A stretch of 64,000 nucleotides of DNA from contig CANDBT010000003.1 in the NCBI GenBank assembly GCA_947383005.1, forward strand, positions 62,001-126,000. The letters run 5' to 3'. This document shows positions 39,106-59,672 of the stretch, piece by piece. The notes under the pieces are model-generated. The model saw only the letters and a program-made list of their open reading frames with translations, was not told where the DNA came from and made no database searches. Origin of the DNA: an uncultured bacterium. Its GTDB lineage: Bacteria; Bacillota; Clostridia; Lachnospirales; Lachnospiraceae. The stretch's first letter is position 1. Every line of letters begins with the position of its first letter. The position numbers and the translations under genes are program-made.

Positions 39106-39114
39106 TTGGCAGAT

Positions 39115-39963
39115 ATGATCATACGTAACAATATACCTGGTATCAATGCGAATAGGAATAAAGGAATATCACAAGGAAATCTACAAAAGAATCTGGAAAA
39201 GCTTTCTTCTGGTTACCGGATTAACCGGGCAGGAGATGATGCGGCAGGATTGGCAATTTCGGAACTGATGAGAAACCAGATCCGCGGTTTGGATCAGGCT
39301 ATGAAAAATTGCAATGATGGTATAAGTTTTACCAATACCGGCGACGGCGCACTGGCAGAGGTACATTCCATGTTGTCCAGGCTGAAGACATTGGCGGTAC
39401 AGTCGGCGAATGGTACGTATAATACGGCAGCCAGGCTGAATCTGGATGAGGAAAGACAGCAGCTTTTGGATGAGATGGATCGGATTGGGGAGACTTCACA
39501 TTTTGCGGGTATCCAGTTGTTCGGTCATGATAATAGCAACAAGCAGCCAATTCCAGGCCAAGTGCCGAATGATGATGTGGTTTTCCAGGTTGGCCCTTCG
39601 GCTCAGGAAACTTTGGCGATGGAGCGCTATTATATAGGCAGTGCAAATATGAACCTTGATACAACCAGTTTTGCCACCTTGGCGGATGCTAATGATGCCG
39701 TGCCAAAGATAGAAGAGGCGATTGAAGCAATAGCAGATGTCCGGGCGACTTTTGGCGCTGCTAGTAACCGTCTTCAGCATGCGTATAATAATCTGTATGT
39801 TACTGATGAAAATATGAATGCTGCGGAAGCTCAGATAAGGGATACGAATATGGCGGAGGAGTTCACGGATTTCGCAAAGAATAATATTCTTCTTCAATCT
39901 TCCAATGCCATGGCAGCCCAGGCAAATTCGACAGTAGAGTTGGTTCTTAACCTCCTCCAGTAA
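39115..39963 (+). CDS. Flagellin (first copy)
   Basis: A 282-residue flagellin with full D0/D1 regions: NLEKLSSGYRINRAGDDAAG near the N-terminus and MAEEFTDFAKNNILLQSSNA plus a terminal VLNLLQ. Only a short central region (about 135-190) is present, so surface domains D2/D3 are missing, as in many Clostridia. I choose ATG 39115 with GGAAGGTGG nine bases upstream; a TTG at 39106 overlaps that site. It differs from the second flagellin in its centre and has less biased codon use, so it is probably the minor filament protein. Confidence 0.93.
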   Translation: MIIRNNIPGINANRNKGISQGNLQKNLEKLSSGYRINRAGDDAAGLAISELMRNQIRGLDQAMKNCNDGISFTNTGDGALAEVHSMLSRLKTLAVQSANGTYNTAARLNLDEERQQLLDEMDRIGETSHFAGIQLFGHDNSNKQPIPGQVPNDDVVFQVGPSAQETLAMERYYIGSANMNLDTTSFATLADANDAVPKIEEAIEAIADVRATFGAASNRLQHAYNNLYVTDENMNAAEAQIRDTNMAEEFTDFAKNNILLQSSNAMAAQANSTVELVLNLLQ

Positions 39964-40135: not shown

Positions 40136-40942
40136 ATGATTATTCAACACAACATAGCCGCTATCAATTCATACAGAAATTTGGGGATCAACCAAAGCGC
40201 ATTGAGCAAAAACCTTGAGAAATTGTCTTCTGGTTATCGGATTAACCGTGCAGGCGATGACGCTGCTGGTCTTGCTATTTCTGAGAGCATGAGATCCCAA
40301 ATCAATGGTTTGAATCAGGCTGCGAAGAATGCTAACGATGCTATTGGACTTATCCAGACAGCAGAAGGTGCTTTGACAGAGACTCATTCTATGTTACAGC
40401 GTCTGACTACTTTGGCGAGCCAGTCTGCAAATGGTACCTACAATAGTGTAGCTAGAGGAAATCTGCAGAAGGAAGTTAGCCGTTTGATTGAAGAGATTAA
40501 CCGTATTTCTAACGACACAGATTTCAATGGCGTTAAGCCGATCAGCGCTGGTACGATTACATTCCAGATTGGACCGACTGCTGGTGAGACGCTTGCTTTG
40601 ACTACTTGCGGTATGACAGCAGCTGATATTGGAATCGGTGGTATTAATGTTAGCACATTGTCAGGTGGTAATGCTGCTGTAACTACTATTAAGAAGGCTA
40701 TTAATAAAGTTTCTGATTATCGTGCTGACCTCGGTGCTGCTCAGAACAGATTGGAGCATACGGTTAACAACCTGAAGGTTACATCCGAGAATATCACTGC
40801 TGCTGAGAGCCGTATCCGTGATACTGATATGGCTGATGAGATTACTGCATTCACAAAGAATAATATTCTTCTGCAGGCATCTCAGTCCATGTTGGCACAG
40901 TCTAATTCTGTACCGCAGAGCATCTTGAGCCTGCTTCAGTAA
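40136..40942 (+). CDS. hag: Flagellin (major copy)
   Basis: A 268-residue flagellin starting MIIQHNIAAINSYRNLGINQ and ending QSNSVPQSILSLLQ, with complete D0 and D1 helices and only a minimal central loop (about 140-185). Its codon use is strongly biased to a small set (GCT, GGT, CGT, CTT), unlike neighbouring genes, as expected for a highly expressed filament protein. It has its own promoter, a structured leader and a perfect AGGAGG. Surface Ser/Thr residues in the central part (TISAGTITF, INVSTLSGGNAA regions) are candidates for O-glycosylation by the downstream enzymes. Confidence 0.96.
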   Translation: MIIQHNIAAINSYRNLGINQSALSKNLEKLSSGYRINRAGDDAAGLAISESMRSQINGLNQAAKNANDAIGLIQTAEGALTETHSMLQRLTTLASQSANGTYNSVARGNLQKEVSRLIEEINRISNDTDFNGVKPISAGTITFQIGPTAGETLALTTCGMTAADIGIGGINVSTLSGGNAAVTTIKKAINKVSDYRADLGAAQNRLEHTVNNLKVTSENITAAESRIRDTDMADEITAFTKNNILLQASQSMLAQSNSVPQSILSLLQ

Positions 40943-41122: not shown

Positions 41123-42445
41123 ATGAAAGCTGAAAAAAAGCCTCGCATTTCACAATGTATGATTGTAAAAAATGAAGAAAAGAATATCCGGAGAGCCTTA
41201 TCTTGGGGAAAGAATGTGATGTGGGAACAGATCGTGGTAGATACAGGTTCTACAGACCGGACTGTGGAGTTGGCAAAGAAGATGGGGGCAAAAGTGTTTT
41301 TTCTGGAATGGCCAGATGATTTTGCTGAAGCAAAAAACTATGCCATTGAAAAGGCAGGAGGGGATTGGATCATATTTTTGGATGCGGACGAATATATGGA
41401 AGAGAAGGATGCCAAAAAGCTTCCCGAAGTATTAGGGCAGCTTTCGAATAGAGGCTTTGACGGCATCACAGCTTTATTGCATAATCTTGATGATGCGGGG
41501 CAGATTTTTTCTTCCTGCAGCCATCTTCGTTTTTTTCGCAACGTCCCCGATATTCGTTATAGAAGACGGATTCATGAACAATTAGTATCTTTGTCAGGTA
41601 ACGAATTGCAGATTATGGATGGAACAGAGGTGTTTTCTATTTTCCATACCGGATATCAGAGCGGGGTTTCAGCAAAAAAGAGAAATAGTGGCAGGAATAA
41701 GCGGATGCTTCAAAGGGAGATAAAAGAACATCCGAAAGATTCGGAGCTTTTGGGATATATGGGAGACGAGTATTTTGATACTGGTGAGTTCCGTGAGGCG
41801 GAGCGGTGGTACTGTCTGGCAGTTGAATATATGCCTGCAGAGCTGAAGGAATATGATCAGAGGAGTGCGGTTACTTTTTCGCGGCTTTTGATGGTTCTTG
41901 CAGAAAAAGGAAATATTGCCTGGCAAGATATTTGCGATGTGTACCAGCGGGGGGTGCAGGCATTTCCCAAGGATGCAGATCTCGACTATATGGCAGGACG
42001 CTTTTTGGTGATGCACGGTTTGCCTGATAAGGCCGTCGAATTTTTAGAGATGGCTATTCGAAAGCTGGAGATTTATGGCTGTACCGGGAAGGCATTGTTT
42101 TTGGCAGGAAATTTGGGGGAGGCATATGATCTGTTGGCCAGATGCTGTTATGAGACGGAAGATCTGCAAAAGTGTATTTCCTATGCAGTGGCGCATTTGA
42201 AATATGCACATTATGAGATGAAACCATTATACTGGGTATTAAAGGCGCTGTTCCATGATGACGAAGAGGGAAAAAACCAGGAAAAAAATGAAGCAGTCAT
42301 GAATTTTCTTTCCCGGCTTTATGATTTTTTGTCTTTGAAGGATCGCCTGTTTGTACTCAGAACGGCACAAGAGGCAGGGTGCGACGGATTTGCCAGTTAT
42401 ATCATGGATCAGTATTTTACGCTGGACGAGCGGAATGTATTGTGA
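41123..42445 (+). CDS. GT2 glycosyltransferase with TPR-like C-terminal region
   Basis: A 440-residue protein. GT-A domain residues 8-230 contain CMIVKNEEKNIRRAL, VVDTGSTDRT (38-47) and the metal-binding DAD at 87-89. Beyond about 190 the sequence is a run of helical TPR-like repeats (for example LGYMGDEYFDTGEFREAERW and YMAGRFLVMHGLPDKAVEFL). First gene after the major flagellin and paralogous to 36605-37684, it is the best candidate for the enzyme that attaches the first sugar to flagellin Ser/Thr, by analogy with the GT2 next to fliC in Clostridioides difficile. ATG preceded by GACAGGGAGAT. Confidence 0.87.
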   Translation: MKAEKKPRISQCMIVKNEEKNIRRALSWGKNVMWEQIVVDTGSTDRTVELAKKMGAKVFFLEWPDDFAEAKNYAIEKAGGDWIIFLDADEYMEEKDAKKLPEVLGQLSNRGFDGITALLHNLDDAGQIFSSCSHLRFFRNVPDIRYRRRIHEQLVSLSGNELQIMDGTEVFSIFHTGYQSGVSAKKRNSGRNKRMLQREIKEHPKDSELLGYMGDEYFDTGEFREAERWYCLAVEYMPAELKEYDQRSAVTFSRLLMVLAEKGNIAWQDICDVYQRGVQAFPKDADLDYMAGRFLVMHGLPDKAVEFLEMAIRKLEIYGCTGKALFLAGNLGEAYDLLARCCYETEDLQKCISYAVAHLKYAHYEMKPLYWVLKALFHDDEEGKNQEKNEAVMNFLSRLYDFLSLKDRLFVLRTAQEAGCDGFASYIMDQYFTLDERNVL

Positions 42446-42472: not shown

Positions 42473-43633
42473 ATGAAGATTGTGTATATTGAATGGGGGG
42501 CTTTTGGAACTGAGGATATGCGAAAAGCATTTATTGCGGAAGGACATGTGCTTGCATTGTTTTTGTTTTCTGCCGCGTATGAAAGGCGCAGCCATGATCC
42601 GGAAACGGAGGAAAAATTGTGTGCTTTTCTGCATAAAGAGACACCTGATCTAGTTTTTTCTTTGAATTATTTTCCTGTAATATCCAAAATCTGCCAGCAG
42701 GAGGGGGTCCGCTATATCTCTTGGACATATGACTGCCCATGTTATCTGCTCTATTCTGCTACGATCATAAATCCTTGTAATGTTGCTTATATTTTTGATA
42801 AGGAATTATCCTTGGAATTTTACCGTGCCGGTATCCGGACAGTGCATTATATGCCGTTGGCAGCAGCCACAGAGCGATTGGATGCCCTTGTTCCCAATAC
42901 TGCCAAAAGAGAGCCTTTTCTCTATGATATTTCCTTTGTTGGTTCTTTATATATTGAAAAATATGATTATTTCTCAAAAATCGAGCCAGAATTGTCTGAT
43001 TATGCAAAGGGCTATTTGGATGCCCTTATAGGCGCTCAATTGAAGATTCAGGGTTACGATCTTGTGCAAGGTTTGCCGGAGCTTGTTATGGAAGAACTTT
43101 ATCAAGCTTGTCCAATTGAACCGGAACCGGATGGTATGGAATCCAGGGAATATTTTTATGAACAATATGTGATTAATCGCAGAATTACAGCAATCGAGCG
43201 AATAGATCTTTTGGAGACATGTGCGCGGTATCGGCTTTTGGATCTTTTTACGCGGGCGAAAGAGCTGACAATGCCAAATATCCGGAATCACGGAGAAGTA
43301 GAGTATTATGCGGAGATGCCGTTTGTATTTAAGCAAAGCAGGATTAATCTCAATGTTTCATTGCGTGGGATCAAGAGCGGCATTCCGTTGCGTGCTTATG
43401 ATATCATGGGAGCGGGAGGCTTTCTGCTCAGCAATTTTCAAGCGGATTTTTTGAATTATTTTATCCCGGGAGAGGATTTGGTGATTTATGAAAGTAAGGA
43501 AGATTTGCTGGCTAAAGTCATCTATTATCTTACCCACGAAGAAGAACGCAGGGCGATTGCCAGGAATGGCCATGACAAGGTAGCAGCGGGACATACCTAC
43601 AGGCATCGGGTGAGGGAAATGCTGGATTTCTGA
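42473..43633 (+). CDS. CgeB/DUF3880-like glycosyltransferase, array member 1
   Basis: A 386-residue GT-B-type protein. The N-terminal half (DUF3880-like) starts KIVYIEWGAFGTEDMRKAFI and includes VFSLNYFPVISKIC and INPCNVAYIFDKEL. The middle has DISFVGSLYIEK. The C-terminal half carries the GT1/CgeB signature (SGIPLRAYDIMGAGGFLLSN, then NGHDKVAAGHTYRHRVREML). It probably transfers one sugar to a growing glycan; donor unknown. It is the first of six close paralogs in tandem and ends just before the next member. ATG 28 bases after the GT2 gene; ribosome site GAGGATGAGAG. Confidence 0.85.
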   Translation: MKIVYIEWGAFGTEDMRKAFIAEGHVLALFLFSAAYERRSHDPETEEKLCAFLHKETPDLVFSLNYFPVISKICQQEGVRYISWTYDCPCYLLYSATIINPCNVAYIFDKELSLEFYRAGIRTVHYMPLAAATERLDALVPNTAKREPFLYDISFVGSLYIEKYDYFSKIEPELSDYAKGYLDALIGAQLKIQGYDLVQGLPELVMEELYQACPIEPEPDGMESREYFYEQYVINRRITAIERIDLLETCARYRLLDLFTRAKELTMPNIRNHGEVEYYAEMPFVFKQSRINLNVSLRGIKSGIPLRAYDIMGAGGFLLSNFQADFLNYFIPGEDLVIYESKEDLLAKVIYYLTHEEERRAIARNGHDKVAAGHTYRHRVREMLDF

Positions 43634-43652
43634 TATAGGAGGATAGTTTTCA

Positions 43653-44804
43653 ATGAAAGTTGTATTTATTGAATGGGAAAGCTTTGGAAAGGAAGATGTG
43701 AAAAAGGCATTTTTTGCGGAAGGGCATGATTTGGTTTTGTTTCCGGTTTCCGTTGATGAAGATTTGGACAAGCCATCAGCTCTTAAGGAAAGGCTGCCTT
43801 CCTTATTGCATCAGGAAGCGCCAGATGTTGTGTTTTCGATCAATTATTTTCCGGCAGTTTCCAGCATCTGTAATGAAGAAAGAGTACGGTATATTTCGTG
43901 GATTTATGATGCACCATATGTCCGTTTATATTCTCAGACGGTAATGAACCCCTGTAATATAGTATATGTTTTTGATAAAGAATTGTGTATGGAGTTTCGC
44001 AATGCCGGTGTAAATACGGTTCATTATCTCCCATTGGCAGTGGATACGGATCGTCTGGATACGTTGCTGGCATCCGCAGAACCATCTGGTTTTAAATATG
44101 ATATTTCTTTTGTTGGTTCATTTTATGTGGAAAAAAATGATTATTTTACTCAGATGGCAGATGCCCTGTCTGATTTTGCCAAGGGATATCTGGATGCGGT
44201 TATTTCTGCGCAGATAAAAATCCAGGGATATGATTTCGTGGAAGATGTGTTAGGCCCGGTTATTGATGATTTGTATAAAGCGTTTCCCTTGGATCCGGAT
44301 CCTAATGGTATGGAGAGCAAAGAATATCTTTATGCCCAGTATGTGATCAACCGCCGTATCACGGCATTAGAGCGGATTGATCTTTTAAATGCTATTGCAA
44401 AAAGGCATAGTGTTGATATTTTTACCTATATAAAAGATTTTACGATGCCAAATGTCTGTAACCATGGCCGGGTTGATTACTTTAGTGAGATGCCAAAGGT
44501 ATTCAGGCAAAGCCGAATTGATTTGAATATATCTCGCCGAGGTATTAAAAGCGGCATTCCGCTCAGGGCTTTTGACATTATGGGAAGCGGAGGATTTCTG
44601 CTCAGCAATTTTCAGGCGGAGCTTTTGGATTTTTTTATCCCGGATGAGGATTTTGTTTATTATGAGAGTAAAGAAGATATGCTGCAAAAGATTGATTATT
44701 ATCTTCGTCATGAAGCAGAACGGCAAGAAATTGCCAGGAATGGGCATGATAAGGTAGCGGAAAGGCATACTTACAGACATCGGATAAGGGAGATTTTTTC
44801 GTGA
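43653..44804 (+). CDS. CgeB/DUF3880-like glycosyltransferase, array member 2
   Basis: A 383-residue paralog. The start KVVFIEWESFGKEDVKKAFF and the C-terminal block SGIPLRAFDIMGSGGFLLSN match member 1 closely. The N-terminal region lacks the HDPETE-type segment, giving a slightly shorter protein. In the GGFLLSN motif region Ala is replaced by Ser (MGSGG). AGGAGGATAG lies upstream of the ATG. Its TGA overlaps the GTG of member 3, so the two are translationally coupled. Distinct acceptor or donor use among members is likely but cannot be read from sequence. Confidence 0.85.
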   Translation: MKVVFIEWESFGKEDVKKAFFAEGHDLVLFPVSVDEDLDKPSALKERLPSLLHQEAPDVVFSINYFPAVSSICNEERVRYISWIYDAPYVRLYSQTVMNPCNIVYVFDKELCMEFRNAGVNTVHYLPLAVDTDRLDTLLASAEPSGFKYDISFVGSFYVEKNDYFTQMADALSDFAKGYLDAVISAQIKIQGYDFVEDVLGPVIDDLYKAFPLDPDPNGMESKEYLYAQYVINRRITALERIDLLNAIAKRHSVDIFTYIKDFTMPNVCNHGRVDYFSEMPKVFRQSRIDLNISRRGIKSGIPLRAFDIMGSGGFLLSNFQAELLDFFIPDEDFVYYESKEDMLQKIDYYLRHEAERQEIARNGHDKVAERHTYRHRIREIFS

Positions 44805-45970
44805 AGATATTGTTCATTGAATGGGATAGCTATGGATATCAAGATATAAAAGAGGCATTTATTGAGGAAGGACATCAGTTAGTGTGTTTTCCCTTTAAAG
44901 TTTTTGGGCATCAGGGAGAAGAACTTTTGCGTGACCCGGAGACAGAAAGCAAGCTGCATGCGGCATTGCGGCGGGAAATACCGGAGTTAGTGTTTTCGGT
45001 GGATTATTTTCCGGTGATTTCCGGAGTGTGCCAAAAAGAAGGCATCCGATATATTTCTTTTAACTATGACTGCCCTCACATTTTGTTGTGTTCTAATACG
45101 ATTATTAATCCTTGTAATGTGATTTATGTTTTTGATAAACAGCTTTATTTAGAATATCATCATGCTGGTATTTCTACTGTCCGTTATCTGCCGCTGGCGG
45201 TTAATACAAAACGTTTGGATGCCATAAAGCCGGCATTGACGGATACCATGGATTCAGGATATGATGTGTCTTTTATCGGTTCGCTATATTTGGAAAAGGG
45301 AAATTATTTTGATCAGATCGAGCCGCTTCTTCCAGAGTATACGAGAGGATATCTAAAGGCATTGATTATGATGCAGTTGAAGATATCTGGTTATGATCTT
45401 GTGCAGGAGATGATTCCAGCGATCCTGGATGATTTATGTAGGGTTTATCCGGTAAAACTTATGCGGGATAGTGCGCAGCCAGCCAGTTTTTTTTATGAAC
45501 AGCATGTCATTAACCGCAGGATTACCGCTATAGAGCGTATTGATTTGTTGGAAACAGCGGCGAAAAAGTATTCTGTGGATCTTTTTACGCATATAAAGGA
45601 CTTTCCCTTGTCTGGTGTACGTGTCCATGGCGGAGTTGATTACTTTAGTGAAATGCCTTTGATTTTTAAGCAAAGCAAAATTAATTTGAATATTACTTTA
45701 CGCAGTATCAGAAGCGGGGTTCCGTTGCGTGCCTTTGATATTATGGGGGCGGGAGGTTTTTTGCTCACGAATTATCAAGCCGACATTTTGGATTTGTTTG
45801 TGCCAGATGAAGATTTTGTATATTATGAGAGTAAAGAAGATTTTTTGCGGAAAATAGGTTATTATCTGTCGCATGAAGAGGAACGAAAGGCGATTGCACA
45901 AAGCGGGCATGACAAGGTCGCCGCAAGGCATACGTACAGACATCGGGTGCGGGAGATGTTGGATTTTTGA
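44801..45970 (+). CDS. CgeB/DUF3880-like glycosyltransferase, array member 3
   Basis: A 389-residue paralog starting with GTG at 44801 inside the stop of member 2. Landmarks: KILFIEWDSYGYQDIKEAFI, VFSVDYFPVISGVCQKEG, DVSFIGSLYLEKGNYF, SGVPLRAFDIMGAGGFLLTN and the common end HTYRHRVREMLDF. The last 114 bases are about 94 percent identical to the end of member 4, much more than the sequence just before it, pointing to recombination between neighbours. The enzyme is expected in the cytoplasm. Confidence 0.85.
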   Translation: MKILFIEWDSYGYQDIKEAFIEEGHQLVCFPFKVFGHQGEELLRDPETESKLHAALRREIPELVFSVDYFPVISGVCQKEGIRYISFNYDCPHILLCSNTIINPCNVIYVFDKQLYLEYHHAGISTVRYLPLAVNTKRLDAIKPALTDTMDSGYDVSFIGSLYLEKGNYFDQIEPLLPEYTRGYLKALIMMQLKISGYDLVQEMIPAILDDLCRVYPVKLMRDSAQPASFFYEQHVINRRITAIERIDLLETAAKKYSVDLFTHIKDFPLSGVRVHGGVDYFSEMPLIFKQSKINLNITLRSIRSGVPLRAFDIMGAGGFLLTNYQADILDLFVPDEDFVYYESKEDFLRKIGYYLSHEEERKAIAQSGHDKVAARHTYRHRVREMLDF

Positions 45971-45982
45971 AGGTGGATGTTT

Positions 45983-47155
45983 ATGAAGATACTGTTTATT
46001 GATTGGATGTACTATGGAAAAGATGATATAAAAAGCGCAATGCTTGAAGAGGGACATGAAATAATTTCTTTTCCATTTGAAGTTTCAACATCTCTGGTAT
46101 GGGAACAACTGATTCATAATCCAGAAACAGAAAGAAGGCTTTGTACCGCATTACATGAAGAGATACCAGAAATAGTTTTTTCTGTGAATTATTTTCCCGT
46201 GATTGCTAGAGTGTGCCAAAAGGAAGACATTCGGTATGTTTCTTGGAGCTATGATAGCTATTATATCCTGCTTTATTCAGATACAATTCGTTATCCGTGT
46301 AATGCAATCTATGTTTTTGATAAAGAGATGTATAGGGAATATCATGAAGCAGGGATTTTTACCGTGCATTATATGCCATTGGCAGTTAATGCAAAACGAT
46401 TGGAGCGCATAGATAAAGACAGGAATCTATTAGCGGAGTTCCCGTATAAAGTTTCTTTTGTTGGTTCATTTTATCTGGAAAAAGGAAGTTTCTTTAAGCA
46501 AATTGAGGCAGCGCTTCCAGAGCGTTCCCGGGGATATTTAAAGGCATTGATCGCTATACAGTTAAAGATACAAGGATATGACGTGATTCAGGAAATGCTT
46601 TCCCCTATCTTAGATGATTTTTGTAAAGCTTATCCGTTGAAGCCACTATCATCAGGAATGGAGCCAAAAAGTTTTTTTTATGAGCATCATGTTATTAAAC
46701 CTTGGATTACAACAATAGAACGGATGGACTTATTGGAAGCTATAGCTGAAAAATATACCGTAGATTTGTTTTCGCATACAGAAGATTTTGCTGTACCTGG
46801 ATTGAATAACCATGGCCCTGTAGATTACTTCCAGGAGATGCCTTTGGTTTTTAAGCAAAGCAAGATTAATCTGAATATAACCATGCGTGGCATAAAAAGT
46901 GGAATCCCACTTCGTGCTTTTGATATAATGGGGGCAGGCGGTTTTTTACTCAGCAATTATCAGGCGGGTTTTCTGGATTATTTTGTGCCGAATGAGGATT
47001 TTGTTTTCTATGAAAATAAAAAAGATCTGTTAGCAAAGATTGGTTATTATCTGTCACATGAAGAGGAACGGAAAGCGATTGCACAAAGCGGACATGACAA
47101 GGTCGCCGCAGAGCATACGTACAGACATCGGGTGCGGGAAATGTTGGATTTTTGA
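45983..47155 (+). CDS. CgeB/DUF3880-like glycosyltransferase, array member 4
   Basis: A 390-residue paralog: KILFIDWMYYGKDDIKSAML at the start, KVSFVGSFYLEKGSFFKQIE in the middle and SGIPLRAFDIMGAGGFLLSN near the end. I take ATG 45983 with AGGTGG at 45971-45976; an in-frame ATG at 45977 overlaps that site. One conserved patch differs: where others read VINRRITAIERIDLLE, this reads VIKPWITTIERMDLLE, which may mark changed acceptor specificity. Base composition is more AT-rich than the flagellar genes. Confidence 0.85.
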   Translation: MKILFIDWMYYGKDDIKSAMLEEGHEIISFPFEVSTSLVWEQLIHNPETERRLCTALHEEIPEIVFSVNYFPVIARVCQKEDIRYVSWSYDSYYILLYSDTIRYPCNAIYVFDKEMYREYHEAGIFTVHYMPLAVNAKRLERIDKDRNLLAEFPYKVSFVGSFYLEKGSFFKQIEAALPERSRGYLKALIAIQLKIQGYDVIQEMLSPILDDFCKAYPLKPLSSGMEPKSFFYEHHVIKPWITTIERMDLLEAIAEKYTVDLFSHTEDFAVPGLNNHGPVDYFQEMPLVFKQSKINLNITMRGIKSGIPLRAFDIMGAGGFLLSNYQAGFLDYFVPNEDFVFYENKKDLLAKIGYYLSHEEERKAIAQSGHDKVAAEHTYRHRVREMLDF

Positions 47156-47176
47156 ATGTAGGAAGGAAAGGGGAAC

Positions 47177-48739
47177 ATGAGAGAGATTAGCGTAATCATC
47201 TTTTGCTATAATGCAGGTGCTTATATTGATAGATGCATGGCATCCGTCACGGCACAGATAGAATCAGGCAGTCTGGAAATTATTTGTGTGGATGACGCTT
47301 CTTCTGATGACACATGGGAACGTTTACAGAGATGGGAGCAGCGTTTCTCGGAAAATGTGCTGCTGATTTCCCTGGAAACGGAAACAGGACAGGAAGCGGC
47401 CAGGAAAATTGGATTGTCTTATGCTTCTGCGGATTGTACTGCGTTCATAAAAGCAGAGGATTGTTTGGAACCGGGACAATTTGAAGAATTATACAGAGTT
47501 GTTCGAAATCAGGGTAACAACGGAAACCAACAGCAGAATCTGCGGATTGTCCAGTTCTATTCGGGGACAGATTCTTTTAATTTCTTTACGGATCAGTTGA
47601 CAAAAGAATTGCATAGACGAGGACACGAAGTTTTTGTCTGCGATCTAGGGGATGTTTCGGGAAAAACAGAACATTCTTATGACCATTTGAATCGTTTTCT
47701 GTTAAAAAAGATAGATGCAGTGATCTGTTTTGACGGGATAGGGACCAGGGAAGAGCAGTTTATTCAGCAGTGGGATAAGCATCAGGCAGTAGTGCTGGAT
47801 ATTTTGATGGATCCGCCCTTTCGTTTTCATCCCACATTGGAGAAACATCCCCAAAATTATGTTTTGTTTTGCTGTGATCAGGAGCATGTCAGCTATGTAA
47901 CAAAATATTTCCCCCAGGAAGTCCCCAATGTAATTTTTATGCCCCACGTGGGGGCTGTGAGTGAGAAAGATGAGGTAGCTGTTCCTTATAAAGAGAGAAA
48001 ATATGATATTCTTTTTTCGGCAAGTTACTATCATCCAATGTCTCAGATGGAGAAAATAAAATGCCTGTTTCCGGATCAGCCGGACATGTGGAAATTTTAT
48101 CAGCAAATGTTTGAAAATCTAGTAGAGGATAGTTCGCTGACCATTGAGAGGGCAGTTCTTCATACATTACAGCAATTCCATTTATCTGCATCTGATGAAA
48201 TGCTGAAGATGCTTTTGAACCGTTCGCTATATGTGGATTGGGCAATCCGTATGTATCATCGGGGACGGGTTGTGGAAGCTTTGGCGGAATCAGGGTTGGA
48301 ACTTTATCTTTTGGGGCCAGGATGGGAAGACCATCCCTCGGCGGGATATCCGAATGTACATCGTTTGGGCAGCCAGGTACCATATAAACAGACTCTCGCC
48401 TTTATGGCGGATGCCAGGATCAATCTAAATGTGATGCCTTGGTTTAAATCAGGGACACATGACCGGATTTTTAATACGTTGCTGCAGCATTCGCTTCCCC
48501 TTACTGATCCAAGCAGTTGGATTACCGAGCATTTTACCGATGGCGTAGACATTGCTTTGTATGACCTGAATCATTTGGAGCAGATTCCGGATATAGCAAG
48601 GCAATTGTTAGCGGATCCTATGCGGGCGGAAATGATTATCCAGAGAGGGTATAAGAAGGTCAGCCAAAATCTGACATGGTCTAACTGTGCGGATTGGCTT
48701 TTAGAGGTGGCAAAACAGGTCAGGGGAAAGAAAATATGA
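47177..48739 (+). CDS. Hybrid protein: truncated GT2 domain fused to a CgeB-like glycosyltransferase
   Basis: A 520-residue protein. Residues 1-110 are the first half of a GT2 domain (ISVIIFCYNAGAYIDRCMAS, ICVDDASSDDTWERL), but the DxD position reads KAED (92-95) and the acceptor half is missing. From about 122 onward it is a GT-B protein of DUF3880/CgeB style (LRIVQFYSGTDSFNFFTDQL, YDILFSASYYHPMSQ, ARINLNVMPWFKSGTHDRIF) more distant from the array members. The GT2 part is probably non-catalytic. It interrupts the array between members 4 and 5; its TGA overlaps the next ATG (ATGA). Confidence 0.8.
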   Translation: MREISVIIFCYNAGAYIDRCMASVTAQIESGSLEIICVDDASSDDTWERLQRWEQRFSENVLLISLETETGQEAARKIGLSYASADCTAFIKAEDCLEPGQFEELYRVVRNQGNNGNQQQNLRIVQFYSGTDSFNFFTDQLTKELHRRGHEVFVCDLGDVSGKTEHSYDHLNRFLLKKIDAVICFDGIGTREEQFIQQWDKHQAVVLDILMDPPFRFHPTLEKHPQNYVLFCCDQEHVSYVTKYFPQEVPNVIFMPHVGAVSEKDEVAVPYKERKYDILFSASYYHPMSQMEKIKCLFPDQPDMWKFYQQMFENLVEDSSLTIERAVLHTLQQFHLSASDEMLKMLLNRSLYVDWAIRMYHRGRVVEALAESGLELYLLGPGWEDHPSAGYPNVHRLGSQVPYKQTLAFMADARINLNVMPWFKSGTHDRIFNTLLQHSLPLTDPSSWITEHFTDGVDIALYDLNHLEQIPDIARQLLADPMRAEMIIQRGYKKVSQNLTWSNCADWLLEVAKQVRGKKI

Positions 48740-49923
48740 AGATCCTATTTATCCAATGGGGCGTGTTCGGGACAATGGATATGGAAGAAGCATTTATGGC
48801 AGAGGGACATATGGTTGTCCGGTTTCCTTTTTCTAAGGATCAGGATGTAGTCTATAATTTTGAGGTAGAAAAAGAACTGACAAGCGTCCTGCATAAAGAG
48901 GTGCCGGATGTGGTGTTTTCGTTTGATTTTTTTCCCGTGATTTCCGCGGTTTGTGAAAAAGAAGATATCCGATATATTTCTTGGGTTTTTGATGATCCCT
49001 GGGTTTTTTTATATTCAGATATGGCTGCCAATCCATGTAACTGCATTTATGTTTTTGATCAAAAATTATGTAAAGATTTTCATGAAAAAGGTATCTTTAC
49101 CGTTCATTATATGCCTTTGGCGGTCAACACGGGGCGTCTGGATGCGATGAACCAGAAGATAAAGACAGGATATGCGTATGATGTCACATTTGTTGGATCG
49201 CTTTATGTGGAGCAACTTAACTTTTTTGATCGGATGTATGCTGTATTGCCAGAGTATTCCCAAGGATATATCCATGCTCTTATGGCAATTCAGATGCAGG
49301 TTCAGGGTTGTGATCTTATTGAGAATGCGTTATCACCAGTTATTGATGATCTTTGTAAAGCCTGTCCGATAGGGATAGAACCAGGGAATTCGGCAACAAG
49401 AGAATATATGTATGCCCGTTATGTGATTGACCGGAGGATTACAGCAATTGAGCGTATTGATTTGCTGGATGCGGTTGCCAAAGAGCATAGGGTGGATTTG
49501 TTTACACATTTTAAGGGATTTTCGATGCAAAATGTCTGCAACCATGGCATAGTGGGATATTATGATGAGGCGCCAAAGGTGTTCAAAAAGAGTAAAATTA
49601 ATTTGAACATTACTTTACGTAGTATCAAAAATGGGATTCCGCTGCGGGCGTTTGATATTATGGGCGCCGAAGGATTTCTTCTTAGCAATTTTCAGGCCGG
49701 ATTTTGGGATTTGTTTGTACCCGGAGAGGACTTTGTTTATTATGAGAACAAAGAGGATTTGGTGCGGAAGGTCGGTTACTACCTGAAACACGAAGATGAG
49801 AGAAAAGCGATTGCCAGGAATGGGCATGAGAAAGTCGCTGCAAGGCATACATACATACAGACACCGTGTAAGAGAGATGTTTGGTTAGAAATGAGGTATG
49901 GTAATGAGAATAGTATTTATTGA
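48736..49923 (+). CDS. CgeB/DUF3880-like glycosyltransferase, array member 5 (frameshifted C-terminus)
   Basis: A 395-residue paralog starting KILFIQWGVFGTMDMEEAFM and holding SFKKSKINLNITLRSIKNG-like and PLRAFDIMGAEGFLLSNFQA blocks. The end differs from all relatives. After AARHTY the frame reads IQTPCKRDVW... instead of RHRVREM, because the DNA has three ATAC units (49847-49858). With one unit fewer, it would read HTYRHRVREMFG and stop at 49887, ahead of the next ribosome site. As it stands the longer tail runs into the start of member 6. The catalytic core is intact. MGAEGG replaces MGAGG. Confidence 0.83.
   Translation: MKILFIQWGVFGTMDMEEAFMAEGHMVVRFPFSKDQDVVYNFEVEKELTSVLHKEVPDVVFSFDFFPVISAVCEKEDIRYISWVFDDPWVFLYSDMAANPCNCIYVFDQKLCKDFHEKGIFTVHYMPLAVNTGRLDAMNQKIKTGYAYDVTFVGSLYVEQLNFFDRMYAVLPEYSQGYIHALMAIQMQVQGCDLIENALSPVIDDLCKACPIGIEPGNSATREYMYARYVIDRRITAIERIDLLDAVAKEHRVDLFTHFKGFSMQNVCNHGIVGYYDEAPKVFKKSKINLNITLRSIKNGIPLRAFDIMGAEGFLLSNFQAGFWDLFVPGEDFVYYENKEDLVRKVGYYLKHEDERKAIARNGHEKVAARHTYIQTPCKRDVWLEMRYGNENSIY
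49847..49858 (+). repeat. ATAC tetranucleotide repeat (three units)
   Basis: Three adjacent ATAC units inside the 3' end of array member 5. Loss of one unit would restore the family's usual C-terminus and stop codon. Tetranucleotide repeats can slip during replication, although three units is short. Confidence 0.8.
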
Positions 49924-51064
49924 ATGGGGGACCTTTGGGAAAGATGATGTAAAAATGGCATTTGCGGCGGAGGGGCATAAACTGGTGACCTTTCCCTTTT
50001 CGGCTACATATGAAACAATCAGCCATGATCCGGAAGCAGAAAAAAGATTGCATATTGTGTTGCGCAAAGAAGTGCCGGATATGGTGTTCTCTTTGAATTA
50101 TCTGCCGCTGGTGTCCAGAGTGTGCCAGGAAGAGAACATAAGGTACGTTTCGTGGCTTTTTGACAGTCCTTGTTTTCAGCTTTATTCGGTTACGGCTGCA
50201 AACCCATGTAATGTGATTTATGTATTTGATAAGGAGGAATATTTGGCGTTTCGCAAGGCGGGGATTAATACCGTGCATTATATGCCATTAGCAGTGGATG
50301 TAGACAGACTGAAACCCGTTCTTGACGTTTTGCCAGAAAACAGCTTTGATTATGATGTATCTTTTGTAGGATCGTTATATATGGAGAAATTAAATTATTT
50401 CCCGGTAGTGATGTCCCGTCTTCCGGAATATGCCAAAGGATATATTGACGCATTGATTGAGGCGCAGATGAAAATCCAGGGGTATAATTTTATCCAGGAT
50501 TTGTTGGAACCAGTGATTGATGATTTGTACGAGGCATATCCTGTGGACCCAGAGCCGGACGGCACGGAACCTCGGGAGTTTTTCTATGCGGAATATGTGA
50601 TCAACCGCAGGATTACTACAATGGAAAGGATTGGGCTGTTGATGGCGGCGGCTTCAGCTTATAAAGTTGATCTTTTTACTTATAAAAAAGATTTTTCTAT
50701 ACCCAATGTATATAATCATGGGCCGATTGATTATGTCCGTGAGATGCCATTTGTTTTTCGGAAAAGCAAGATTAATCTGAACATTTCCGGCCGTTTGATT
50801 AAAAGCGGTGTCCCGCTTCGTGCTTTTGACGTGATGGGAGCCCGCGGGTTTTTGCTCAGTAATTATCAGGCGGATTTTTTGGATTTGTTTGTGCCAGGGG
50901 AAGATTTTGCGTATTATGAAAGCAAAGAAGATTTGTTGGATAAGATCGGCTATTATCTGTCTCATGAGGAAGAGCGGAAGGCTATTGCAAAGAATGGATA
51001 TGAGAAAGTGAAGGCAAAGCATACCTACAGGCATCGGGTACGTGAGATGCTCTCAATATTCTAA
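49904..51064 (+). CDS. CgeB/DUF3880-like glycosyltransferase, array member 6
   Basis: A 386-residue paralog: RIVFIEWGTFGKDDVKMAFA, VFSLNYLPLVSRVCQEEN, DVSFVGSLYMEKLNYF, and SGVPLRAFDVMGARGFLLSN with Arg where others have Gly. The ATG at 49904 has GAGG at 49893-49896; an in-frame ATG at 49898 is too close. It overlaps the frameshifted tail of member 5 by 20 bases. The end matches the family (HTYRHRVREMLSIF). It closes the array; a 142-base direct repeat follows. Confidence 0.85.
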   Translation: MRIVFIEWGTFGKDDVKMAFAAEGHKLVTFPFSATYETISHDPEAEKRLHIVLRKEVPDMVFSLNYLPLVSRVCQEENIRYVSWLFDSPCFQLYSVTAANPCNVIYVFDKEEYLAFRKAGINTVHYMPLAVDVDRLKPVLDVLPENSFDYDVSFVGSLYMEKLNYFPVVMSRLPEYAKGYIDALIEAQMKIQGYNFIQDLLEPVIDDLYEAYPVDPEPDGTEPREFFYAEYVINRRITTMERIGLLMAAASAYKVDLFTYKKDFSIPNVYNHGPIDYVREMPFVFRKSKINLNISGRLIKSGVPLRAFDVMGARGFLLSNYQADFLDLFVPGEDFAYYESKEDLLDKIGYYLSHEEERKAIAKNGYEKVKAKHTYRHRVREMLSIF

Positions 51065-51093
51065 AAAATTTAATATGAAAGCGCTGCACGGCA

Positions 51094-51386
51094 GCCATGG
51101 TGAATGCATGCTCGCATGCAATGAACCATGGATATCGTGCAGCCAAGCCAGATAGAGCCAAGTAGGCCGATAGGCCGGATTGCGAATACTGGCGGCGATT
51201 GCGGGGGCACGAAGTGCGGAGCAATCGGTTTTCATGCCATGGTGAATGCATGCTCGCATGCAATGAACCATGGATATCATGCAGCCAAGCCAGATAGAGC
51301 CAAGTAGGCCGATAGGCCGGATTGCAAATACTGGCGGCGATTGCGGGAGCACGAAGTGCGGAGCAATCGGTTTTCATGCCATGGTG
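51094..51386. repeat. 142-base direct repeat, two full copies with internal hairpins
   Basis: Copies at 51094-51235 and 51236-51377 differ at about three positions, and a third copy begins (GCCATGGTG) at 51378. Each contains a nested palindrome (CCATGGT...TGCATGC-TC-GCATGCA...ACCATGG) and a stem CGATTGC/GCAATCG. The period is not a multiple of three and no ribosome site is present, so it is non-coding. It fills most of the 377-base gap before 51442. Confidence 0.9.
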
Positions 51387-51441: not shown

Positions 51442-52479
51442 ATGGAAGAAGAAAAAAAGTTAAAGGTTATTTTAATTGGTATTGGGGAGGATTGTGTCAG
51501 TATTGTGGATCAGGCGATTCATGATCTGAAAGAAAAAAACAGGATAGAAGCAGTCATTTTTGACCGTGACACGCGATATGATGAACTTTCAGATAAGTCA
51601 TACCCACAATTCATGATAGAAGATCTTCCAGGATTGACCTTTGATAAACTGCTGATTTGTTCCAGATACTGTATTATGGAAGAGAGTGTGAAGCTTTTTT
51701 GCGAAGAGTTAGGTCTTTCTCGTTCTCAATGTGGCAGTTATATCACACACAAAATTGGTCCTCATAAGATCGCTTGGGATAAAGTAACGATAATGGAAGA
51801 TCTGGTAGAACAGCTTTGTTTTTCTGATTCGCTAAATGACTTAGAGCGTTTTTTCTATGGCGGGAAGCACAGGCAGCTTAGCAAATGGCTCCATTACTTT
51901 GAGATTTATGACCGTCATTTTGCAAAATACAGAAATAAGGCTCCGGTCGTAATGGAAATAGGCGTATTTCGAGGCGGTTCTTTGCAGATGTGGAAAGAAT
52001 ATTTTGGAAAGGATGCACAGATTATCGGCGTAGATATTGATGAAAGGACGAAAGCTTTTGAGGAAGATCAGATCCATATCGAGATCGGATCGCAGGCAGA
52101 CCGGGATTTTTTAAAGCAATTAAAGTCGAAATATCCTAAAATCGATATTTTGATTGATGATGGCGGACATACAATGGAGCAGCAGATCACAACTTTTGAA
52201 GAGATGTTTTGCCATATTTCAGCAGACGGAGTTTACTTGTGTGAGGATCTGCACACCAGTTACTGGAAAGAATACGGAGGAGGATATAAATGTCCGGATT
52301 CCTATATTGAGTATAGTAAAAATTTTATCGATTATCTCCATGCTTGGTTCAGCACTGATCCTGCATTGCAGGAGAACCGGTATTCCAGAAGTATGCAAAG
52401 CCTTCACTATTATGATAGCGTGTTAGTGATTGAAAAAAGAAAAACAGGGCCGGCGCTGGATCTAATGTTGGGGTTGTAA
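51442..52479 (+). CDS. SAM-dependent methyltransferase with N-terminal extra domain
   Basis: A 345-residue protein. The C-terminal class I methyltransferase domain (about 145-330) has motif I VVMEIGVFRGGSL (169-181), IIGVDID and DILIDDGGHTMEQQ followed by VYLCEDLHTSYW. This resembles sugar O-methyltransferases of the MycE/cephalosporin hydroxylase-like group, which need a metal held by the DDGGH residues. Residues 1-130 form a separate alpha/beta region (LKVILIGIGEDCVSIVDQAI) of unknown role. It likely methylates a hydroxyl of the glycan built by the surrounding enzymes. AAAAGGAGAAAT precedes the ATG. Confidence 0.8.
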   Translation: MEEEKKLKVILIGIGEDCVSIVDQAIHDLKEKNRIEAVIFDRDTRYDELSDKSYPQFMIEDLPGLTFDKLLICSRYCIMEESVKLFCEELGLSRSQCGSYITHKIGPHKIAWDKVTIMEDLVEQLCFSDSLNDLERFFYGGKHRQLSKWLHYFEIYDRHFAKYRNKAPVVMEIGVFRGGSLQMWKEYFGKDAQIIGVDIDERTKAFEEDQIHIEIGSQADRDFLKQLKSKYPKIDILIDDGGHTMEQQITTFEEMFCHISADGVYLCEDLHTSYWKEYGGGYKCPDSYIEYSKNFIDYLHAWFSTDPALQENRYSRSMQSLHYYDSVLVIEKRKTGPALDLMLGL

Positions 52480-52519
52480 TGCGGACGGCAGCCTGATGTA
52501 CGGCAAGAAAGGGAAGAAG

Positions 52520-53605
52520 ATGAAGACAGCGAAGAAAGTCAGTGTAATTGTTCCGTGTTATAATGCAGCAAAGTATCTGGATCAATGTATAGGACAGCTT
52601 CTGAGCCAGACTATTGGTATGGACAATATGGAAATCATTCTGGTGGACGATGCGTCGACGGATAATGGAGAGACAAAAAAGCTGATCCAGAGATATGAGC
52701 ATGGTTTTCCGGAAACGATCCTGGCTGTTTTTTTAGATGAAAACAGGCGGCAGGGAGGGGCACGGAATGTAGGTGTAGCTTATGCAGAAGGAGAGTATCT
52801 GACCTTTTGTGACGCGGACGACTGGCTGTTGGAGGAGACGTTGGAACATGCATATGATGCCGCAAAAGAGTACGATGCGGATGTCGTCGCGTTTTCCAGA
52901 AAAAATGTTTATGAGCATGGAATTCGTGTACGATTGGAGAAGGGCGCAAGAGATGAACTATTTGTGTTGGAGAAGGAAGAAGACCGAAAAAAATTCCTTC
53001 TAAATGTAAAGGAAGAAGGATATAGTTCCCAGAATAAATTGTTTAAACTGTCCCTGATACGAGAAAATCATATCGCATTTGCAGAGCATTTGATCATGGA
53101 AGAGCCCTCTTTTGTATTGCCAGTGCGAATGTATGTGAAAAGATATTATTATTTGGATGAGCGGCTATATATTTGTTTTTCTTCGCCAGGGAGTACGGTG
53201 CGTGATAATGCCGCTTGGGAAAAAAGGAAGTGGGATAATCTGCAGGTATGGACAGCGTTGCTGGAAGAACTGGCATGCAGGGGGGTCTTACAAGTATACT
53301 GGCAGGAAGTGGAATATCTGTTTTTTACCTTAGGATTAGGATGGACTCTTGGTATGTTGTTTCAAAGAGGCTGTATTTTGACGAAGGATGAATGGAAGGC
53401 ATTGGTAGGAATTGCCAACAGGCTAATTCCCGCAGTCAGAGAAAATCCATATGTAATTCATGAAAGCCATCCTTTTAACCAGGCATGGAATGATGTGTTG
53501 CTGGCAGTTCTGGATATGGAATTTACAGATGCAGATGTACAGGCGGCTAATGATGCGATGACAGAAAGTGCACGGGCGTTTTCCGCATGTCCGGTATTTA
53601 TGTGA
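52520..53605 (+). CDS. GT2 family glycosyltransferase
   Basis: A 361-residue protein. The GT-A domain (about 5-220) contains VSVIVPCYNAAKYLDQCIGQ, the LVDDASTDNG loop and the metal-binding DADDW at 98-102; the remainder is helical and less conserved. Expected to use a nucleotide sugar to extend a surface glycan. ATG at 52520 preceded by AAAGGGAAGAAG; an in-frame start at 52496 is possible but adds an unconserved basic stretch. The gene ends 43 bases before the next start, with no terminator between. Confidence 0.85.
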   Translation: MKTAKKVSVIVPCYNAAKYLDQCIGQLLSQTIGMDNMEIILVDDASTDNGETKKLIQRYEHGFPETILAVFLDENRRQGGARNVGVAYAEGEYLTFCDADDWLLEETLEHAYDAAKEYDADVVAFSRKNVYEHGIRVRLEKGARDELFVLEKEEDRKKFLLNVKEEGYSSQNKLFKLSLIRENHIAFAEHLIMEEPSFVLPVRMYVKRYYYLDERLYICFSSPGSTVRDNAAWEKRKWDNLQVWTALLEELACRGVLQVYWQEVEYLFFTLGLGWTLGMLFQRGCILTKDEWKALVGIANRLIPAVRENPYVIHESHPFNQAWNDVLLAVLDMEFTDADVQAANDAMTESARAFSACPVFM

Positions 53606-53648
53606 TGAAGATGGAAATAGAGATATCAGCAAAACGCCAGGAGGTAGG

Positions 53649-54746
53649 ATGTTGGATGAAAAAAAGATAACGTTTATCACATGTGTCAATGACGAAGAAG
53701 AATATGCAGAATGCCGATATTATTTAAATCGGCTTTCTGTCCCTGAAGGTTACATGATGGATCTTATCAGTATACGGGAAGCGCCATCTATGGCGGCTGG
53801 TTATAATGCCGGGATGAAAAGTTCAGATGCGAGATATAAAATATACCTGCATCAGGATGTGTTTATCAGAAATCCTGCGTTTATTACAGATTTGCTTGCC
53901 GTGTTTGCATGTGATGAACAGATCGGGATAATTGGGGTGATTGGGAAAAGGAATCAAGGATTTTATCCTATTGAAAAGGTAATGATGTGGGATACCGGCA
54001 AGGTGGTCGATAATGAAAGAATTTGGCACTTTGACTATCCATGGAAAAAAATGACTTTTGCGGAAGCGTTAGCGGCAGACGGTCTGATGCTGGCAACACG
54101 ATACGATATTCCATGGAGGGAGGATCTTTTTACTGGCTGGGATTTTTATGATATCTCACAGTGTATGGAGTTTCGGAAAGCAGGTTTTAAAGTGGCAATA
54201 CCATGGCAGGAGACAGAATGGTGCTATCATAATACGTCCTATGTGAAGCTTACACAGTATTACGCTTACTATAAACGTTTTCTCCAGGAATATGCGGGCA
54301 TATTAGGGGATGATATTCCCGCAAAGACAGATCGGTATACGTATGAAAAAGAAGAGAATTATGCGCAAGCGATAGAGGAATTGCGGCAGGGGGTCGCAGG
54401 GCTTTTTGGCATGGGGGATCGGAAAAATCTCCGGAGCCTGCTTTTGGATTCCGACTTGAAAAAGTCGATATATTTAAGGGAGTATGCTTCTATAGTGCAG
54501 ATTGACTGGCAAGAGGAACAGACTCATTCGAAAAAATGCTTTTGGGAGCAGGGAATGTCTGCAGATCAACTGGTAGAAAAGCTGCGGAAGTTGAAATATA
54601 TGTTAAAGCGGATTGAATATACCGATGATCATTCACAGAAGGAACAGCTAAAACAAGAATATTCCCGTTATGCCGTGGCTGATGTATGCAGCCGTTATGT
54701 GCTCGATAAGGATAGGGTTTTAAGAGAAATAACGGATATTTTGTAA
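53649..54746 (+). CDS. Glycosyltransferase of the StrF-like (Glyco_tranf_2_5) type
   Basis: A 365-residue protein. The N-terminal domain (1-205) starts KITFITCVNDEEEYAECRYY, with the segment KIYLHQDVFIRNPAFITDLL, then DGLMLATRYDIPWRED and GWDFYDISQCMEF. This is the pattern of GT-A enzymes related to streptomycin-cluster StrF. The C-terminal part is helical. The same N-terminal domain recurs in the larger protein at 57262. Start at ATG 53649 with AGGAGGTAGG upstream. Acceptor and donor unknown. Confidence 0.75.
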   Translation: MLDEKKITFITCVNDEEEYAECRYYLNRLSVPEGYMMDLISIREAPSMAAGYNAGMKSSDARYKIYLHQDVFIRNPAFITDLLAVFACDEQIGIIGVIGKRNQGFYPIEKVMMWDTGKVVDNERIWHFDYPWKKMTFAEALAADGLMLATRYDIPWREDLFTGWDFYDISQCMEFRKAGFKVAIPWQETEWCYHNTSYVKLTQYYAYYKRFLQEYAGILGDDIPAKTDRYTYEKEENYAQAIEELRQGVAGLFGMGDRKNLRSLLLDSDLKKSIYLREYASIVQIDWQEEQTHSKKCFWEQGMSADQLVEKLRKLKYMLKRIEYTDDHSQKEQLKQEYSRYAVADVCSRYVLDKDRVLREITDIL

Positions 54747-54856
54747 AAAGTGCAATATTTTTCCCAAAGTAGGGGGATGGATTTTTTTGTTGTAAAGCTG
54801 ATCGAATATGGGTATTTTCGCGAGCGGAAAAGATACACATGGACAAGGAGGATGGA

Positions 54857-57138: not shown

Positions 57139-57163
57139 AAATCTATCCTCCGTTTTTATTTCC

Positions 57164-57192
57164 ATTATAGTATGGTTTTGATTGTTCTTCAA
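57164..57192 (-). promoter_or_regulatory. Sigma-A-type promoter of GT8 gene
   Basis: On the - strand TTGAAG (57192-57187), 17 bases, TATAAT (57169-57164). A good housekeeping promoter 26 bases before the GT8 ATG. Confidence 0.55.
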
Positions 57193-57197
57193 TGGAT

Positions 57198-57225
57198 TTG
57201 TTTGTGTATATTGATTTATTATAAT
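57198..57225 (+). promoter_or_regulatory. Sigma-A-type promoter of the second island operon
   Basis: TTGTTT (57198-57203), 16 bases, TATAAT (57220-57225), divergent from the GT8 promoter and 36 bases before the ATG at 57262. The -35 match is modest. Confidence 0.45.
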
Positions 57226-57261
57226 AAAATAAGAAAACAAAGGTATGACGGTAATTAAAAA

Positions 57262-59264: not shown

Positions 59265-59672
59265 ATGCAGATCATAAAATATGCTTTCCAACAGCATGGA
59301 GATGACAGAGGAATGTTGGTTGCATTGGAAGAATATAAAGATATCCCTTTTGAGATCAAACGAGTGTATTATATGTATGATACGAAGGAAGGAGTGCATC
59401 GTGGGTTTCACGCCCATAAGAGTTTAGAACAGATTTTGGTTTGTATTCATGGCTCCTGCAAGATAAGATTGGATAATGGAAGAGAGAAAAAAATTATATC
59501 TTTGGAAAAACCTTACGAGGGATTATATGTGCCAAACAATATGTGGAGAGAGATGTATGATTTTTCACCAGATGCAGTACTTATGGTATTGGCATCAGAA
59601 ATATATCGAGAAGAAGATTATATACGTGACTATGACGGGTTTTTGAAATCAGTGGAAGAGGGTGGTATCTGA
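59265..59672 (+). CDS. fdtA: dTDP-4-keto-6-deoxyglucose 3,4-ketoisomerase (FdtA/QdtA-like)
   Basis: A 135-residue cupin. [20 protein letters not shown] contains the conserved histidines, and [19 protein letters not shown] and [20 protein letters not shown] complete the WxcM/FdtA pattern. These enzymes move the keto group from C4 to C3 of dTDP-4-keto-6-deoxyglucose, giving the FdtA (Fuc3N) or QdtA (Qui3N) branch; which one cannot be told. The next gene is the matching aminotransferase and overlaps it by one base. rmlA and rmlB, needed for the substrate, are not in the window. Confidence 0.88.

Follow-up and report, generated by a model that had tools for sequence, protein, structure and literature searches.

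Why would a bacterium keep six members of one glycosyltransferase family behind its flagellin genes, and what would they build? The question is raised by a 64-kilobase (kb) stretch of DNA from an uncultured Lachnospiraceae bacterium (contig CANDBT010000003.1, positions 62,001 to 126,000), hereafter the window, in which six CgeB/DUF3880-like genes lie between positions 42473 and 51064. Our results make it probable that this array belongs to a horizontally exchanged island for flagellin glycosylation, in which it elongates the glycan. W designates the genome holding the window, and G and L codes designate other genomes and loci (L047 is the locus of G419, L038 of G420, L067 of G421, L094 of G422, L101 and L189 of G423). 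Array members are numbered GT1 to GT6 by position; "GT2 domain" and "GT2 family" refer to a separate glycosyltransferase family. The W assembly is a draft (136 contigs, completeness 97.9%, contamination 3.1%), in which a single 168-kb contig carries both the array and the flagellar genes. Comparisons rest on one genome per species and Pfam matches were judged against gathering cut-offs.

Six CgeB-like paralogs behind two flagellins

The genes at the centre of this study are the following (lengths in amino acids, aa; ortholog identities are to L047/G419):

39106..39963, + strand: flagellin Fla1 (TTG at 39106, ATG at 39115; Flagellin_N E 6.6e-36, Flagellin_C E 1.1e-21)
40136..40942, + strand: short flagellin Fla2, 268 aa (Flagellin_N E 1.3e-42, Flagellin_C E 8.6e-30)
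41123..42445, + strand: TPR-GT2, presumed flagellin-priming glycosyltransferase (Pfam GT2 and TPR)
42473..43633, + strand: GT1, CgeB/DUF3880 GT-B protein, 386 aa, ortholog 81%
43653..44804, + strand: array GT2, CgeB/DUF3880, 383 aa, ortholog 78%
44801..45970, + strand: GT3, CgeB/DUF3880, 389 aa, GTG start, 4-nucleotide (nt) overlap with array GT2, ortholog 78%
45983..47155, + strand: GT4, CgeB/DUF3880, 390 aa, ortholog 74%
47177..48739, + strand: hybrid, 520 aa, a divergent CgeB-like GT-B domain preceded by a truncated GT2 domain (about residues 1-120)
48736..49923, + strand: GT5, CgeB/DUF3880, 395 aa, 4-nt overlap with the hybrid, ortholog 74%
49904..51064, + strand: GT6, CgeB/DUF3880, 386 aa, own orthogroup, no counterpart in the G419 block

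The first-pass annotation of this DNA had described six open reading frames (ORFs) of 383-395 aa on one strand, with short or overlapping junctions, behind a flagellin and a TPR-GT2 enzyme. ORF calls and Pfam matches agreed with it: all six lie on the + strand, some of them overlapping, and two genes with Flagellin_N and Flagellin_C followed by TPR-GT2 precede them. The run is not unbroken, being made of four plus two members with the hybrid gene in between. Likewise, the shared motif blocks that had been put forward hold as a consensus, while exact matches were found in three (EWxxFGxxD), two (SFVGSLYxEK) and one (PLRAFDIMGAGGFLLSN) of the six translations.

DUF3880 (E 3.5e-22 to 7.4e-19) and Glyco_trans_1_2 (E 2.8e-31 to 7.1e-26) were above the gathering cut-off in all six proteins, a pair which we take to be what "CgeB-like" denotes. 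On these matches the six are members of the CgeB/DUF3880 family and predicted glycosyltransferases. Their pairwise identities (54-66% for amino acids, 61-71% for nucleotides) rule out chance as the source of their resemblance, and they were the sole matches when the W genome was searched with GT1 at E<=0.001. NCBIfam assigned no family to any of the six, and a PDB sequence search with the six-member profile returned nothing significant (best E 0.16). A structure model of GT1 (predicted local distance difference test score 89) displayed a GT-B fold that matched the GT4-type GT-B enzymes PimA, BshA and PglA over its whole length, with identities of 8-15% in the aligned rows; the fold alone gives no substrate.

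Each array member fell in its own clade of 6-12 sequences, shared with no other window member, when a FastTree tree was built from 215 sequences (support 0.99 for the six rows of GT1, or 0.51 when widened, 0.97 for array GT2, 0.82 for GT3 and 1.0 for each of GT4 to GT6). Across 54 sequences of these six orthogroups, 68 positions were invariant. That the members differ in specific patches, as had been noted, was borne out by 27 positions fixed within orthogroups and different between them. In the GT1 model, 14 of these 27 follow a beta strand at a distance of at most eight residues, compared with 35 of the 176 remaining variable columns (Fisher p 0.001, for a loop definition picked after the list of positions had been inspected). 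The ratio of between- to within-orthogroup divergence was highest in region 147-255 (2.73), followed by the N-terminal part (2.05) and the C-terminal third (1.89). A single donor common to all six had been considered from the strong conservation of this last third; the idea was not upheld, since the same third is also the best conserved within orthogroups and its ratio is just a little below that of the N-terminal part.

These copies are old. Fourfold-site identity between the window paralogs ranged from 0.26 to 0.46 along the gene, near saturation and without any high tract, and the longest exact common run was 23 nt, which argues against recent gene conversion; no conversion tract was found among the six copies of the W genome. 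Loci L036 and L047, which are mutually close (their Fla1 are identical), displayed Fla1, Fla2, TPR-GT2 and then five CgeB genes and the hybrid in window order, one-to-one with GT1-GT5. GT6 was absent from both and a LicD gene stood in its place. Nonsynonymous (dN) and synonymous (dS) divergence from L047 was determined for GT1-GT5 (dN 0.11-0.16, dS 1.55-2.82) and for the C-terminal part of the hybrid (dN 0.15, dS 1.9), GT6 having no ortholog there; the ratio was far below 1 even though dS is near saturation. Fla2 gave a dS of 0.87 and Fla1 yielded no estimate. The genes tested are thus under purifying selection, and copy number varies by whole genes. Age, one-to-one orthology, kept order and low dN/dS together argue for distinct retained activities and against the reservoir for recombination that the first-pass annotation had offered as one of two explanations. 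The same annotation had set against its own reading a one-to-one conservation with fixed copy number and a role in another polymer such as capsule: the one-to-one conservation was observed, while copy number is not fixed (GT6) and no evidence pointed to another polymer.

In the hybrid gene, Pfam matches covered a GT2 domain at residues 5-120 only and Glyco_trans_1_2 at 364-509. Its G419 counterpart has a longer GT2 part, with an acidic DADD motif where the window has KAED; the GT2 part is short in L036, as in the window, and relatives of the C-terminal part in G421 have no GT2 part. This alignment suggests decay of the GT2 part in the window and retention of the CgeB-like part. At its own C-terminus (49850-49923), GT5 leaves the family pattern after RHTY, and it extends 20 nt into GT6, which is read in another frame.

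Distribution of the array and probable exchange of the flagellin block

Relatives were sought by a single scan of named genomes with patterns from the six array sequences, and the best 80 of the 125 found were kept, corresponding to 77 loci. One close CgeB copy (at least 500 bits) was present in 66 loci, none in 6, and two or more in 5 (2, 3, 5, 5 and 5), counts that are lower bounds because contig ends cut many loci. In this sample such a long run of one family is therefore rare, as had been claimed. The flanks, many of them also cut by contig ends, displayed a flagellin match in 38 of the 77 loci and a TPR-GT2-type match (at least 50 bits, a loose threshold) in 65. A match at E<=1e-120 was recorded in 28 of 396 Lachnospiraceae genomes, in a scan that cannot count arrays since it scored no more than four candidates per genome. 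Within the genus (24 genomes), an array match at 1e-20 occurred in W alone and a flagellin match at 1e-15 in 11 genomes, W included. Finally, none of 20 hand-picked flagellin regions of the family, mostly top-listed ones, carried more than one CgeB match; a 345-bit copy was present in one region, a 203-bit piece in another, and relatives of the hybrid in three (one, one and two).

A different array type was encountered in L038, where several CgeB genes are interspersed with GT2-family genes behind Fla2, and no match to the window TPR-GT2 was found in the stretch examined. L189 displayed, at 11084-19991 on the - strand and downstream of its flagellins, five consecutive stop-to-stop frames of 539-657 aa with 31-35% identity to the window LicD, possibly another tandem expansion in a flagellar locus.

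The site occupied by the array differs within the genus. Congeners G018, G019, G004 and G013 displayed the order Fla1, Fla2, two TPR-GT2 genes and then chromosomal genes, preceded in G018 by one unmatched 365-aa ORF; the W counterparts of these chromosomal genes begin at C3:128295, 2.3 kb past the window end. Upstream genes are those of the window in G018, G019 and G004, and the G013 contig stops at Fla1. From the end of the TPR-GT2 outside the cassette to the chromosomal genes, the congener span is 5.4 to 7.8 kb (L160-L162); that of the W species is about 28 kb, bounded on one side by the LicD gene at 37880 and on the other by a LicD gene that ends at C3:128285. GC content was 0.410 over 37880-64000 against 0.477 over 1-37684.

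The nearest cassette proteins among the genomes compared were those of G419 and L036 (Fla2 95%, Fla1 85%, GT1-5 74-81%), while Fla1 identity to eight congeners was 57-65%. The G419 block sits elsewhere, before counterparts of window genes 17235, 17920 and 19030. For 13 backbone proteins, median identity of W to G419 was 53%, against 59%, 59% and 56% to congeners G018, G003 and G005. In a backbone tree (12 genes, nine genomes) G419 joined G420, and a W+G419 grouping was rejected by the approximately unbiased (AU) test (p 4.8e-10). The Fla1 tree supported W+G419+L036 (100/100), and AU tests rejected both W+congeners (p 1.1e-4) and G419+L036+G420 (p 3.9e-5). Fla2 core columns rejected W+congeners (p 5.1e-4) and, more weakly, G419+G420 (p 0.025). 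Both flagellin trees contain long rows (G423, G420), which weakens single branches. The simplest reading is that flagellins and array moved between lineages as a cassette, with at least one horizontal event. Among the genomes compared, variation takes the form of whole genes gained or lost and of the block exchanged as a unit.

Flagellin length was also recorded. In congener loci L160, L161, L162 and L165, the array is replaced by two TPR-GT2 genes, which follow a longer Fla2 (352-362 aa). Seven congener Fla2 measured 352-368 aa (four at the window's site, three from other loci), and the window Fla2 is without the outer insert of roughly 80-100 aa seen in all seven when aligned. Fla2 measured 268-275 aa in W, G419/L047, L036, G420/L038, G421/L067, G422/L094, G423/L101 and L103, all with at least one close CgeB at the locus. 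Flagellin size as partner of the array was nevertheless dropped, as short flagellins often occur in the family where no CgeB array is present, and the two sets are not independent.

The remaining genes of the island are the following:

37880..38812, - strand: LicD-family gene, island left edge (boundary 37684-37880; Pfam LicD E 2.7e-29)
51076..51386, + strand: RNA element Clostridiales-1 (RF01699; Rfam 101.3 bits, E 2.9e-22, match 51076-51234), a 142-nt unit tandemly doubled
51442..52479, + strand: Methyltransf_24 protein (Pfam)
52496..53605, + strand: GT2-family glycosyltransferase (Pfam; 75% match in the G419 block)
53568..54746, + strand: Glyco_tranf_2_5 protein (Pfam)
54839..56113, + strand: FkbM-type methyltransferase (Pfam)
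56137..57276, - strand: GT8 glycosyltransferase (Pfam Glyco_transf_8 E 1.7e-21)
57262..59235, + strand: two-domain protein, Glyco_tranf_2_5 and GT2 (Pfam)
59265..59672, + strand: FdtA-type dTDP-keto-sugar isomerase (Pfam FdtA E 5.2e-52; PDB 2pa7 151 bits, QdtA 125 bits)
59672..60769, + strand: DegT-type sugar aminotransferase (PDB QdtB E 2.5e-123)
60797..61867, + strand: possible ATP-grasp (PylC-like) protein (matches below cut-off; no PDB match at 0.01)
61864..62760, + strand: NAD-dependent sugar epimerase/dehydratase (Pfam)
62757..63377, + strand: HAD-type hydrolase (Pfam)

The left-edge LicD is 65% identical to the LicD of the G419 cassette and had no match in the stretches from eight congeners. 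The FdtA and DegT genes point to a putative synthesis of a dTDP-3-amino-3,6-dideoxyhexose. The RF01699 element parts the array from the next genes; in the W genome 29 matches to the doubled unit and 26 to the single unit were recorded, many of them partial, and the unit was matched in 15 of 23 other congeners. Gene pieces over several frames at 63359-64000 and L168 1-342, probably a pseudogene, presumably derive from a GT11-type (fucosyltransferase-like) gene; one scanned piece gave no Pfam match. At the right end of the island, L168:259-738 (- strand) is an N-terminal TPP-enzyme fragment (Pfam TPP_enzyme_N), presumably resembling phosphonopyruvate decarboxylase, which may be a remnant of an older island. 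The window also carries FlgK-, FliD- and FHIPEP-family genes. Promoter scans gave 18 flagellar-type matches (17.9 expected) and 59 of the sigma-70 type (53 expected); terminator-like sites (29 against 15.0 expected) lay in many cases inside genes and were not used as evidence.

Proposed role of the array and its rivals

Glycosyltransferase and sugar genes adjoin the flagellins, and the insert is variable, low in GC and apparently horizontally acquired, as is characteristic of a glycosylation island. The closest solved relatives of TPR-GT2 were GmaR of Listeria (22ao, E 2.6e-31) and SunS of Bacillus (7msn, E 1.5e-18), both of GT2+TPR type. The window protein has 440 aa against 637 for GmaR, and the matched GmaR chain has 204 residues, so that the glycosyltransferase part alone was compared. 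The NCBIfam SunS model TIGR04195 gave 76 bits against a curated cut-off of 350, which makes the protein SunS-like rather than a SunS. In the available part of the source, the N-terminal domain of GmaR is described as attaching N-acetylglucosamine to flagellin (PMC9638930).

In the mechanism that we propose, TPR-GT2 would act in the cytoplasm on flagellin not yet exported, binding it by the TPR part and attaching the first sugar to Ser/Thr residues of Fla1 and Fla2. GT1-GT6 and the CgeB-like part of the hybrid, each specific for its own acceptor, would then add further residues one after another. Capping and decoration of the chain would fall to the downstream GT2 and GT8 enzymes, methyltransferases, LicD enzymes and dTDP-3-amino-sugar genes. 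The GT-B fold of GT1, the separate long-term conservation of the paralogs, the kinship of TPR-GT2 to GmaR and SunS and the conflict between flagellin and backbone trees were all computed here; flagellin as the target of the array, the order of addition and the number of residues are inferred. Of the two explanations in the first-pass annotation, the flagellin glycan fits, as flagellins, TPR-GT2 and array stand together and appear to move together, and the reservoir found no support. The separate conservation of six orthogroups is compatible with its further suggestion of one enzyme per linkage, which is unproven. That ordered paralogs act as a cytoplasmic assembly line, each recognising the product of another, with gene number setting glycan length, is a tentative extension that we regard as rather doubtful.

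Several observations weigh against the island reading. A complete donor pathway that could supply six similar transferases was not apparent in the island. Flagellin modification in itself does not require the array, since 17 of the 20 hand-picked flagellin regions had a TPR-GT2-type match of at least 220 bits and none had a CgeB array. As to the exchange, the W backbone row, a long branch, grouped with G419+G420 (98) and not with its congeners, so that the tree conflict concerns the order within W, G419 and G420 alone. The cassette TPR-GT2 was no closer to that of G419 (71%) than the TPR-GT2 outside the cassette (70%), and the near saturation of dS in most cassette genes indicates that the transfer is not recent.

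The main live rival, which we consider unlikely, is a division of sites: each CgeB enzyme or small group would have a Ser/Thr site of its own, or would serve either Fla1 or Fla2, and the array would set coverage, not length. The N-terminal part is the acceptor side in GT-B enzymes. Two flagellins are indeed present, and the group-specific residues are spread over the N-terminal and middle parts, with divergence peaking in 147-255; but the six array proteins displayed no TPR match, in contrast to TPR-GT2, and Fla2 is short, with a small variable part.

A role in a wall polymer (capsule or teichoic acid), the genes merely adjoining the flagellins, is quite improbable. LicD, FdtA, DegT and methyltransferase genes, which occur in wall-polymer loci too, are present in the island, and the FdtA protein displayed a sub-threshold Polysacc_synt_C match (19.5 bits against a cut-off of 28.7, E 0.0011). 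However, among the island proteins scanned, no flippase, polymerase or lipid-linked priming (phosphoglycosyl)transferase gave a Pfam match above cut-off, all of which a capsule locus would need, and the array accompanies its flagellins in other genomes.

It is highly unlikely that the copies are partly redundant or decaying and were kept by chance after duplication: the truncated hybrid GT2 domain without the acidic motif of the G419 version, the departing GT5 C-terminus and the lack of a GT6 counterpart in the G419 block would suit this, against the low dN/dS of GT1-GT5 and the 68 invariant positions. Equally remote is a reservoir or phase variation in which paralogs swap segments to alter the flagellar antigen, for while tandem paralogs of such identity could recombine and a tandem repeat lies directly behind the array, that repeat is the RF01699 element with relatives elsewhere in the genome, the orthogroups are one-to-one, and fourfold sites and exact runs speak of no recent exchange.

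Known systems and significance

Flagellin glycosylation islands exchanged between relatives were described in Enterobacteriaceae (PMC4875605) and Geobacillus (PMC5109656). As far as the available portions of these papers go, they resemble W by a flagellin-side insert, glycosyltransferases, sugar genes, methyl or other substituents, low GC and horizontal exchange. The island of W differs in that both flagellins appear to lie within the exchanged block and that six paralogs of one GT-B family are retained; the word CgeB is absent from both texts, where the same proteins could carry other names. In the available part of a further study, the flagellar hypervariable region of Clostridium likewise combines flagellins with glycosylation genes, and GT2+TPR proteins are proposed as flagellin glycosyltransferases (PMC13317340). 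Unlike in W, this region is described there as lying between flgB and fliD, often with Maf and nonulosonic acid genes; the terms CgeB and Lachnospir- do not occur in its text. A search of open-licence PubMed Central (titles and abstract starts) found no paper on CgeB-type enzymes in flagellin glycosylation or on Lachnospiraceae flagellin glycans, and in the texts found there with CgeB beside flagellin, the letters stood for institutions. A literature search on flagellin outer domains also found no paper. As far as this open-licence literature tells, two features are new: a series of six CgeB enzymes that are kept as distinct orthogroups, and the apparent joint movement of this series and both flagellins.

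Flagellins of the Lachnospiraceae are prominent antigens in the gut. The island lends itself to study: a single block unites the cognate flagellins with a presumed priming enzyme and six to seven related transferases, and, as a natural version without one member exists, the order of chain building is directly testable. If gene number did set glycan length, gain or loss of a gene (as for GT6) or transfer of the cassette would shift the length and antigen of the flagellar surface in discrete steps.

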